From: a virus
Direction: 5' to 3' (one strand)
IMG/VR virus record: IMGVR_UViG_3300033153_016037
Coordinates: 1-25,505 of that record
Length of the DNA: 25,505 bases
Shown: positions 3,979 to 22,620 of the stretch, piece by piece
How positions within the stretch are numbered: the first letter of the stretch is position 1
Layout of the letters: every line of letters begins with the position of its first letter
Program-made: the position numbers and the translations under genes
The notes under the pieces: generated by a model
Database searches by the model: none
What the model saw: only the letters and a program-made list of their open reading frames with translations
Told to the model about the DNA's origin: nothing

Positions 3979-5855
3979 CGGCTCTTTTCCTCCTCGATAT
4001 ACGGCGCGAGCAAGCGAGCCACCTTACGCAACTTGGTTTCGGATTCGAAAATATTCTCGGAAATGTTGAAGGTGTTATTATAAGTCCTGCTGACGGAAAC
4101 GCCTCCACCTCCTGCCGTGGCGGCAAACGTTCCCCCGCTTCCACCCCCTGCCGGCGCCGCCGCCGTATCCGCAAGCTGACCGTAGCCCGCCAGGAACGTG
4201 CCCGTCTTCAGCAGATTACGAAATCCAATACCCGACAATTGCGTCTGGATGTGCACGGCCAGTCTTTTTGCGACATCCAGGGCGCTCGGCGCGCCGGCCC
4301 GCATTCCCGCCGCCAGCTCGTTCATGATGCCCTGGCCGCCCTTGCGCAGGTTGCGAAGCGGCCCCATTTTGGCGGGAGAATGCGGGATATGGTCAACGAG
4401 CCACTGCAGCTTGCCGATGAACCATTCCTTAATCGCCGCCCACTTGGCCTTCAGGCCATCCCACAACTGCGTAAAAATCCCCTTGCCCGCCTCGTACAGC
4501 CTGCCGCCGATGCCGGTAATCCAGTCCACCATTTCGCCGAAGACGCCCTTGACGAAATCGTATATCCTGGTGAATACAGTCTGCCAGAGGGTGAAGTAGC
4601 CGGTCACTATTTTGAGCCACAGCCCTCCAATCCACTTGAGCGCGCCGATGACGGCCTCGCCGATTTTCTTAAACATGTCCTTGACGAAAGTCCACAGCCA
4701 GTTGAGCTTTTCGCCTATCCATCCAACGGTCGCCTTCGTCTTTTCCTGAATGCCGCCCCAGTCCTTCGTCCAGGCCACCACGAGCAGGGCCACCGCCGCA
4801 ATGATGGCCTCGATAATCCACAGTATAGGACCGCCGGCGATTTGTAGTATTATAAAATTAGCCGTTGCCGTCGCCAGCGCAGGAACTACGGAACCCATAA
4901 TGACGCCGCTCAAGGCGCCCCATGCTGTGGCGAGTCCGCCCAGCACCGGCCCCATTGCGGCCAATACGGGCACTAAATTAGTAGAAGCTACAATGAGACT
5001 GCCATACTGCATGCTGAGTTTAGAAAGCATGGCTTGCAGTTTCTGCGTAACAGTAACATTTTCCGCCTTGGCCTTTGCGTCTTCGGCCAGAGCATTTTTG
5101 AATCCCTCCACAGATTTTGTGGTTTTTTCGAATTCCTTTTGCGATATTCCGAGAATCTCTAAGAGTTTTTTCATGCTGCCTTCACTCTGCCCGTTGGCCG
5201 CCGTCAGGCGTTGCATGGCGATTTGAGCGCTCAGGCCCTTATCTTCCAGCAATTTCATCACTGCGGCGAGCTGGTTTGCCGACATCCGCACTCCGCCCTG
5301 TTCGGAGTTCACGTCCGCGAGCGTTTCGAGGTAATCCTGCATTTCGAGGTTTGTATTCCGGTGCACGAAACCCAGCGCGGCCAGCGCGGCTTTCTGATTG
5401 TCGGCGGCGATACCGGCGGACTGGAGCGCAGGAACGAAGCGCATGAGCTCCTCGATATTGGCATCCGTCGCATCGGCAACAGTGCTCCAGGTCTGTACGT
5501 ATTGCTGTATTCCGGCTGCAGTATCTAAGCCCTGCTTTTGCGCAGCTTTCATGAGTTGAAGGACATCGCCGGTGGAAGTGACAGCGCTTGTGTTGGCAAC
5601 CACCATTTCACGCAGCTTTTCTTCAGCCAGCCCGGTGGCGTTGGCTAGCTGCTGCAGTTTGCCACTTTCTTCTGCGGCGCGTCTCCCGACTGCTTCGATG
5701 CCCGCCGCGGCGGCGCTGGCGGCCACGGTGATTTTGCCCCAGTTGGCTTTCAGCTTCTGGGCGGCGCTCGAGCCGGCGCTCTGCACCTTTTGAAAAGCCT
5801 TCGAGGCCTTGTCCTGGGCGCTGATGATGATTGCGGCTTCGGCTTGCGCGGCCAT
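3975..5855 (-). CDS. Tail tape measure protein
   Basis: This 626-residue protein sets tail length and is threaded inside the tail tube. The N-terminus ('AEAAIIISAQDKASKAFQKV') is typical of phage tape measures, followed by a long alpha-helical, Ala/Lys/Glu-rich region. A hydrophobic block at about 310-365 probably forms the membrane-active segment, and Trp-rich repeats lie at about 375-470. 'PHSPAKMGPLRNLRKGG' near residue 500 is a motif often seen near the end of tape-measure proteins. At about 1.5 angstrom per residue the tail would be near 90-100 nm, a short siphophage tail. It starts at ATG behind AAAGGAT and overlaps the next gene by 4 bp. It is separated from the chaperone gene by a repeat array, an unusual interruption inside a tail operon. 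Confidence 0.92.
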   Translation of the reverse strand: MAAQAEAAIIISAQDKASKAFQKVQSAGSSAAQKLKANWGKITVAASAAAAGIEAVGRRAAEESGKLQQLANATGLAEEKLREMVVANTSAVTSTGDVLQLMKAAQKQGLDTAAGIQQYVQTWSTVADATDANIEELMRFVPALQSAGIAADNQKAALAALGFVHRNTNLEMQDYLETLADVNSEQGGVRMSANQLAAVMKLLEDKGLSAQIAMQRLTAANGQSEGSMKKLLEILGISQKEFEKTTKSVEGFKNALAEDAKAKAENVTVTQKLQAMLSKLSMQYGSLIVASTNLVPVLAAMGPVLGGLATAWGALSGVIMGSVVPALATATANFIILQIAGGPILWIIEAIIAAVALLVVAWTKDWGGIQEKTKATVGWIGEKLNWLWTFVKDMFKKIGEAVIGALKWIGGLWLKIVTGYFTLWQTVFTRIYDFVKGVFGEMVDWITGIGGRLYEAGKGIFTQLWDGLKAKWAAIKEWFIGKLQWLVDHIPHSPAKMGPLRNLRKGGQGIMNELAAGMRAGAPSALDVAKRLAVHIQTQLSGIGFRNLLKTGTFLAGYGQLADTAAAPAGGGSGGTFAATAGGGGVSVSRTYNNTFNISENIFESETKLRKVARLLAPYIEEEKSR

Positions 5856-5870
5856 TTTAAAATCCTTTAT

Positions 5871-6131
5871 GCCGCCGGGACGGCGGCGTTACCCGTGGTC
5901 GTAGCGCAGGCGTCCTCGCCGGCTTTATTTGCCGCCGGGACGGCGGCGTTACATGTAATCGTAGCGCCGGCGTCCTCGCCGGCTTTACGTGCCGCCGGGA
6001 CGGCGGCGTTACATGTAATCGTAGCGCAGGCGTCCTCGCCGGTTTTATTTGCCGCCGGGACGGCGGCGTTACATGTAATCGTAGCGCCGGCGTCCTCGCC
6101 GGCTTTACGTGCCGCCGGGACGGCGGCGTTA
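5871..6131 (-). repeat. Tandem 60-bp hairpin repeat array 1 (4.3 units)
   Basis: Four full units (starting at 5871, 5931, 5991 and 6051) and a 21-bp fragment (from 6111) lie head to tail. Units 2 and 4 are identical, and units 1 and 3 share different bases at the same variable places, so a 120-bp pair was probably duplicated. In the transcribed (minus) strand each unit has GCCGCC-GTCCC-GGCGGC and then GCCGGCG-AGGA-CGCC(G/T)GC, that is two GC-rich hairpins. The array begins exactly at the stop codon of the chaperone long form (TAA at 6129-6131 is part of the repeat) and ends just before the tape-measure ribosome site. Every unit is 20 codons long and free of stops, so it looks like coding sequence in one frame, but it is best read as an intercistronic repeat. 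Confidence 0.93.
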
Positions 6132-6714
6132 CATTTTGAAAATCGCTTCATTTCGCTTTTGCGCCTGCCGGGCGACTTCTTCGTGCACCATGTTCGTAAA
6201 GTCAGCCTGCAGCGGCGTCATCTCCCGTATTGTCGGCGCCAGCGGATTCCCCGCCGCCACCAGGTTCGCCAGTTGCGCCCCCTCCGCCGTCGCGAAAAAG
6301 CTCCTTCAGTTGCTCCTGCGGCGAACTCGCCATGCCCGAAATCTCGCAGATGCGTTCGTAAAGCGTATCCAGGACGCCCTCGGGGGCCGTCCAGCGCTTG
6401 ATATCGCGCACCGAGTAGGATTCCCCCTCGACGCTCAGCCCGAACGCCAGGGCGAGGAATTTTGCCTCCTCGTCGGCCAGCTCGGATTTTTCCAGGTCAA
6501 TCTCCATGTCAATCGCGCCGGAAGGCTGCCCGGTCACCGGGTCTACACGGGTTTTCTGCTTGAGGCCCATGCCCCGCCTGGCCTTCACCTGCGCCCGCTC
6601 GCCGTTGGTCAGCGGGCGCACGCCGAAGACGCCGATTTCGGTCTCGATGAGCTCGACGTGCGCCGCGCCGTTTATCAGCAGGCTCGACAGTTTCACTCTT
6701 TGGGCAGGTTCCAT
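6129..6714 (-). CDS. Tail assembly chaperone, frameshifted long form (GT-type fusion)
   Basis: The short chaperone frame reaches a run GGC GGA GGG GGC and goes on to a stop at 6202. In another frame, starting at 6278, there is a clearly protein-like 49-residue tail ('AQLANLVAAGNPLAP ... KRNEAIFKM') ending at TAA 6129-6131. Going from the first frame to the second requires a -2 (or +1) shift. A glycine tRNA on GGC at 6277-6279 slipping back two bases to GGG would do it, giving a protein of about 195 residues. Tail chaperones of long-tailed phages often use a programmed shift, usually -1; Mu itself is described as using -2. The extension ends just ahead of the tape-measure gene, as in the lambda G/GT arrangement. 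The shift is inferred; the two frames are seen directly. Confidence 0.72.
6202..6714 (-). CDS. Tail assembly chaperone, short form (G-type)
   Basis: This 170-residue acidic protein sits between the tail tube and tape-measure genes, the standard place for the G-type chaperone that coats the tape measure before tube polymerisation. It begins at ATG behind GGAGGAAAA. The N-terminal half carries a beta-rich part ('HVELIETEIGVFGVRPLT') and the second half is helical ('EGVLDTLYERICEISGM'). The last 35 residues are Gly-rich low complexity (from 'RDGGGGATG') and look like out-of-frame reading past the shift site, typical of the unshifted product. No catalytic motif is expected. I rely on position, length and the second frame for the assignment rather than on strong sequence resemblance. 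Confidence 0.8.
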   Translation of the reverse strand: MEPAQRVKLSSLLINGAAHVELIETEIGVFGVRPLTNGERAQVKARRGMGLKQKTRVDPVTGQPSGAIDMEIDLEKSELADEEAKFLALAFGLSVEGESYSVRDIKRWTAPEGVLDTLYERICEISGMASSPQEQLKELFRDGGGGATGEPGGGGESAGADNTGDDAAAG

Positions 6715-6764
6715 TTTTCCTCCTTCGTTTTTTTTTCAGGCAAGGGGTTTGAATCCCTTGTTTT

Positions 6765-6930
6765 GCCGCCGGGACGGCGGCGTTACCTGTAATCGTAGCG
6801 CAGGCGTCCTCGCCGGCTTTATTTGCCGCCGGGACGGCGGCGTTACCCGTAATCGTAGCGCAGGCGTCCTCGCCGGCTTTACCTGCCGCCGGGACGGCGG
6901 CGTTACCTAAAGCCGGGACGGCGGCGTTAC
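6765..6930 (-). repeat. 60-bp hairpin repeat array 2 (2 units plus fragments)
   Basis: Two full 60-bp units (6765 and 6825), a 22-bp fragment (6885-6906) and a shorter fragment (6912-6930) are the same family and orientation as the array at 5871. The last fragment includes the TAA stop of the tail tube gene (6927-6929), so the repeat again begins exactly at a stop codon. Between the array and the chaperone start there is a short AT-rich spacer with a T/A run and a small inverted repeat (CAAGGG...CCCTTG, 6741-6760) that could form a further hairpin. Confidence 0.92.
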
Positions 6931-22500: not shown

Positions 22501-22620
22501 GGTAACGCCGCCGTCCCGGCGGCAGGTAAAGCCGGTGAGGACGCCGGCGCTACGACCACGGGTAACGCCGCCGTCCCGGCGGCAGGTAAAGCCGGTGAGG
22601 ACGCCGGCGCTACGATAACA
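22501..22620 (+). repeat. 60-bp hairpin repeat array 3 (2 units, plus-strand orientation)
   Basis: Two tandem units (22501 and 22561) are nearly identical (only the last few bases differ). The sense strand is plus, opposite to the late-gene arrays, so the repeat again has the same orientation as the transcript. A G-U pair replaces a G-C pair in hairpin 2 (GCCGGTG/CGCCGGC), which keeps the stem in RNA. The array sits just ahead of the ribosome site of the next gene. Confidence 0.92.

Follow-up and report, generated by a model that had tools for sequence, protein, structure and literature searches.

Tailed phages use −1, −2 or +1 frameshifts in the tail assembly chaperone gene, and a +1 shift is likely in the halovirus HSTV-2 (PMC5009743). 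A TTT-CGC +1 site was proposed in 2020 for the chaperones of HF1-group haloviruses (PMC7230728). A UUU_CGN +1 shift was demonstrated by mass spectrometry in influenza PA-X (PMC3498833) and has been proposed in plant amalgaviruses (PMC5052127), and in the +1 shift of bacterial prfB (RF2) the slip codon is preceded, at a distance of 3 nt, by a Shine–Dalgarno (SD)-like sequence (PMC12421855). Both the +1 UUU_CGN class and its proposal for the homologous halovirus chaperones are already known.

The window analysed here is the whole 25,505-nt stretch of an IMG/VR virus record (IMGVR_UViG_3300033153_016037, positions 1 to 25,505), and all chaperone features described below lie on its minus strand. 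Gene order on that strand runs from a tail tube protein gene (PF18906; 8159–6927) through the chaperone ORF (6714–6202) to a tail tape measure protein gene (5855–3975); the chaperone ORF occupies the position of a G/GT gene, between tail tube and tape measure. The G frame, recognised by gene order and homologs, encodes 170 aa from ATG 6714 to TGA 6204–6202. The T frame (6305–6129) is open from 6305, immediately after a TGA at 6308–6306, and ends at TAA 6131–6129, adding 54 aa past Phe140. Relatives retain the arrangement of G/GT genes, in which the 3′ end of G is overlapped by a second ORF in another frame.

Inspection of the frames placed T at +1/−2 relative to G, in agreement with the initial annotation, which had described two overlapping frames with this offset and not the usual −1. 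The glycine-rich character reported for the late part of the short frame was also found, after residue 142: the zero-frame tail past the shift site (6294–6202) is a Gly/Ala-rich stretch of 30 codons that overlaps T, compared with 1–24 codons in relatives. As had been noted as well, the T frame ends at a repeat boundary; the repeats form an array of 60-nt units whose edge provides the T-frame stop codon. This tandem repeat (GCCGCCGGGACGGCGGCGTTAC...GTAGCGCAGGCGTCCTCGCCGGC) occupies window positions 5870–6134, 6762–6930 and 22501–22615, the first two flanking the chaperone gene and the third lying at 22.5 kb; a search of IMG/VR for a 22-base core of the repeat gave no hit elsewhere.

The G part was modelled with AlphaFold (mean pLDDT 83). 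The best PDB match of the model was the HK97 chaperone 2ob9, a weak match (probability 0.84, TM 0.62 by target, E 0.4), and among viral models (BFVD) it matched Methanobacterium virus Drs3 and several proteins named tail assembly chaperone. The gene is identified as a split tail assembly chaperone gene by its place in the gene order, its division into G and T, and its homology to proteins annotated as chaperones (those of vir075 and the haloviruses).

Within the overlap, the G frame reads CUU_UUU_CGC (6300–6292). The UUU is codon 140 (Phe), and UUU_C (6297–6294) is the sole in-frame TTT_C of the G ORF. The window has an in-frame UUU_CGN inside the overlap with the target frame at +1, the arrangement that defines the UUU_CGN +1 class. 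T-frame homology to relatives starts at 6293 (ATAEGAQLANL...). The initial annotation had taken the second frame to be coding from 6278, which is wrong; the 15-base difference matters because the conserved UUU_C lies just before 6293 and was missed.

Compared with the described systems, this site combines shared and distinct features. The HF1/HF2-group haloviruses and HSTV-2 (Hafunaviridae) encode a homolog of the chaperone (profile E 1e-9 to 1e-17) with UUU_CGC at the homologous Phe and T at +1, as in the window; unlike it, they are haloarchaeal myoviruses of very distant sequence with AAG or UCC in the E site, the HSTV-2 site being TCC TTT CGC. The Methanobacterium viruses Drs3 and PhiF3 and the Methanobrevibacter virus vir075 share the gene order, the +1 frame and UUU_C at the same residue, but carry CCU or CAU in the A site, not CGN. 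Their public records (L007, L012 and L011, respectively) carry only the G part as an annotated chaperone, the T extension being unannotated. Bacillota prophages (L009 of Polycladospora coralii, L057–L060 and L069) have UUU_CGC or UUU_CGU with the +1 frame, and the tail tube of L009 is clearly related to that of the window (E 6e-27); they differ from the window in a short G tail and in the E-site codon UCC, which gives the full UCC_UUU_CGN nonamer. The influenza A PA-X and amalgavirus sites match the window in slip codon and A-site codon class but belong to unrelated genes of eukaryotic RNA viruses, a convergent likeness.

Used directly as queries, the chaperone and tail tube of the window returned no homologs in viral contigs or in the phage collection, and the L009 chaperone as query gave no match in viral contigs. 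Relatives were reached via the capsid, which led to L003, L005 and the methanogen viruses, and afterwards via alignments; L005 and Drs3 showed the same +1 chaperone layout, with TTT CCT GAA close to the stop codon of G. Relatives from methanogen viruses, from Bacillota prophages and from metagenomic phages were then obtained by searching phage records, viral contigs and genomes. A first set comprised 55 loci in 17 clusters below 50% identity. The full set comprised 73 loci (the 55, plus 15 found via the tail tube and 3 haloviruses) in 29 clusters below 50% identity, and spans the window phage, Bacillota prophages, methanogen viruses and haloarchaeal viruses. Left out of the 73 were L063 (first part of G only), L096 and L100 (no T detected) and L064 (−1). 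L003 was not used either, being a −1 relative with a different tail: it is related through the capsid, its tail tube is a different one, and the T frame of its chaperone (4600–5360) lies at −1, with GGGAAAA as the likely slip site.

The UUU_C site was conserved throughout. In the first set, the T frame lay at +1 in 55/55 loci and an in-frame TTT_C was present in the overlap in 55/55, this being the only TTT_C of the entire G ORF in 17/17 representatives. In the full set, all 73 loci in the 29 clusters combined a +1 T frame with an in-frame UUU_C, always at the homologous position, and two further instances of TTT_C occurred outside the overlaps. Among the 29 cluster representatives, TTT_C accounted for 29 of the 508 codons in the overlaps, against 1 of the 3765 in the rest of the gene (Fisher p = 2e-26, a guide value only, as the loci are related). 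Many overlaps are just 5–7 codons long, which pins TTT_C as the site. The A-site codon across the 29 clusters was CCU in 10, CGC in 9, CGU in 6, CAU in 2, and CAA and CUC in 1 each, with CGC or CGU accounting for 15 of the 29. The commonest E-site codon was UCC (11/29 clusters), unlike the CUU of the window.

The long form of the window's chaperone is most likely produced by a +1 skip at UUU-C and not by the less common two-base backward slip of the initial annotation. Specifically, sequence comparison points to a lambda G/GT-type chaperone gene in which a +1 slip from UUU to UUC at codon 140 would yield a 194-aa G–T fusion, a reading to which we assign a probability of about 0.9. The frames, the gene position, the conservation of UUU_C and the homology that the T extension shows from this site on were observed directly; that ribosomes shift here, in which direction and how often, and what G and T do, is inferred. 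In the proposed mechanism, the majority of ribosomes would produce the 170-aa G protein. In a minority, tRNA-Phe on UUU (codon 140, 6297–6295) in the P site would slip with CGC occupying the A site, re-pairing one base ahead with UUC (6296–6294) and skipping one base, and translation would then proceed in the T frame, yielding the 194-aa fusion. By analogy with lambda, G would coat the tape measure and T would recruit tail tube subunits (PMC5009743). The predicted tryptic junction for the +1 product is ELFATAEGAQLANLVAAGNPLAPTIR, with a computed neutral monoisotopic mass of 2607.40 Da.

An SD-like AAGGAG (6306–6301; duplex −8.4 kcal/mol) lies 3 nt upstream of UUU_C and may aid the slip by pairing with 16S rRNA in the fashion of prfB, which has the same spacing and a P-site +1 slip; the prfB slip, however, takes place on CUU_U ahead of a UGA stop, whereas the window has the sense codon CGC. 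The role of AAGGAG is just suggestive, because 3.3% of the in-frame positions across the genes of the window equal its duplex strength and because it is not conserved: a strong SD-like sequence upstream of the site was found in the window alone and not in the homologs, whose median was −2.1 kcal/mol. The RNA downstream of the site showed no unusual structure (z −1.1) and was rejected as a stimulator. With 166 of 6739 codons, CGC is used frequently in this genome, which makes a rare-codon pause unlikely.

To compare possible shift sites, every possible junction in the window was scored against profiles built without the window, either from 54 homologs or from bacterial-type homologs only. With the 54-homolog profile, a +1 shift at UUU scored 70.3 bits, a −2 shift at GGGGGC 62.3 bits and the zero frame 43.8 bits; the corresponding values with the bacterial-type profile were 97.6, 89.0 and 62.5 bits. 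Overall, the T part raised the profile score of the window by 26.5 to 35 bits. The best-scoring junctions lay at codons 136–141, not at 146. Scores peak 1–3 codons upstream of UUU_C, and the exact codon is therefore set by the motif and not by the scores.

Among the alternatives, a −2 slip on the U-run itself survives best, although we regard it as highly unlikely. Here tRNA-Phe would move from UUU two bases back to the UUU in CUUUUUC, giving ...KELFFATAEG... in a product of 195 aa. Such re-pairing is possible in the window and in L062, and the profile scores cannot separate this product, with its one extra Phe, from the +1 product (97.3 versus 97.6 bits). In nearly all relatives, however, UUU is preceded by UCC, GAC, AAA, AAC and similar codons, on which −2 re-pairing of tRNA-Phe is impossible, whereas the +1 move from UUU to UUC is possible in all of them. 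Drs3 and HF2 are among those whose site does not permit the −2 move. The public annotation of HRTV-13 labels the homologous shift −2: GenBank describes gp21 of this virus (L085) as a putative −2 case. The conserved site there is AAG TTT CGC AGA TAG, and comparison with the relatives, which a +1 shift on UUU_C fits better, argues against the −2 label. The two products would differ by mass, the predicted junction being ELFFATAEG... at about 2754.47 Da for the −2 slip on the U-run (+147.07 Da, one extra Phe) versus ELFATAEG... for the +1 shift (computed values).

Even less probable is the Mu-like −2 slip put forward in the initial annotation. The run GGC GGA GGG GGC G (6288–6276) is present in the G frame exactly as it was described, but it is most likely not the shift site. 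The slip would take tRNA-Gly from GGC (6279–6277) back to GGG and give ...KELFRDGGGGAQLANL..., again 195 aa. GGA GGG GGC G is in frame and allows re-pairing, and phage Mu, whose corresponding gene employs a −2 shift (PMC5009743), resembles the window in gene role, target frame and the presence of a G-run in the overlap. Conservation of GGGGGC in homologs had been suggested as a check, and the comparison came out against it: in none of the homologs in the 73-locus set does a G-run stand at this position. Among the 29 representatives, a GGGGC able to re-pair by −2 occurs only in the window and, at a different place, in HSTV-2. Across both profiles, the −2 product at GGGGGC fell 8.0 to 8.6 bits below the +1 product at UUU and lost the conserved TAEG; in the +1 frame, the ATAEG between UUU and the G-run aligns with KTDEG (Drs3), KTAEG (vir075), RTEEG (L095) and RTQEG (L091). 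Its predicted tryptic products are ELFR (563.31 Da) and DGGGGAQLANLVAAGNPLAPTIR (2132.13 Da; computed neutral monoisotopic masses). The Mu-type −2 class is not supported for the window, where T homology starts upstream of the G-run and conservation falls on UUU_C, not on the run. What stands of the earlier proposal is a tail chaperone whose long form would require a +1/−2 shift and not the usual −1; the Mu-like slip at GGGGGC finds no support, as the homologs share UUU_C and not the G-run.

That there is no programmed shift, T being either a separate protein from the internal GTG 6260 (a 43-aa ORF does start there) or a frame killed by mutation or sequencing error, has a negligible probability: the conserved T segment begins directly at UUU_C, 11 codons upstream of that GTG, the same split is retained in 73 loci, and a sequencing error near 6280, once considered as a possible cause, is excluded because the frame relation recurs in all of them.

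Some relatives depart from the common layout. In L064 (genome G107, a Bacillota relative; about 1850–1890), the T frame lies at −1 and the sequence reads GAT AAA AAA AAG AAT TAA, which appears to reflect a switch of direction within the family, with a putative −1 shift at A_AAA_AAG. In two viral contigs, L022 and L023 (about 3979–4283), some 100 additional residues, in the +1 frame, separate the shift site from the T domain.

Returning to the +1 shift at UUU_C, it is probably an old and stably inherited solution for the chaperone across bacterial and archaeal tailed viruses, with mostly UCC_UUU_CGN (the PA-X nonamer type) in the bacterial branch, UUU_CCU in the methanogen branch, an apparent switch to −1 in L064, and public annotation that misses T or calls the shift −2. 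The CCU of the methanogen branch means that A-site codons other than CGN also occur. Relative to the literature consulted, what seems new is the breadth of the solution (bacterial phages, Bacillota prophages and methanogen viruses), the presence of UUU_C in every +1 case, the A-site codons beyond CGN and the apparent use of −1 by at least one relative, L064.

Taken together, these results correct a plausible Mu-like −2 reading that is probably wrong. They indicate that a +1 signal of eukaryotic RNA viruses, once proposed for haloviruses, has probably been retained throughout a broad family of tailed viruses of prokaryotes. Looking for an in-frame UUU_C where the two frames overlap would be a simple rule for annotating split chaperones in which T has been missed or the shift labelled −2, and the natural variants of the A- and E-site codons would provide material for testing the slipperiness of UUU_C in bacteria and archaea.
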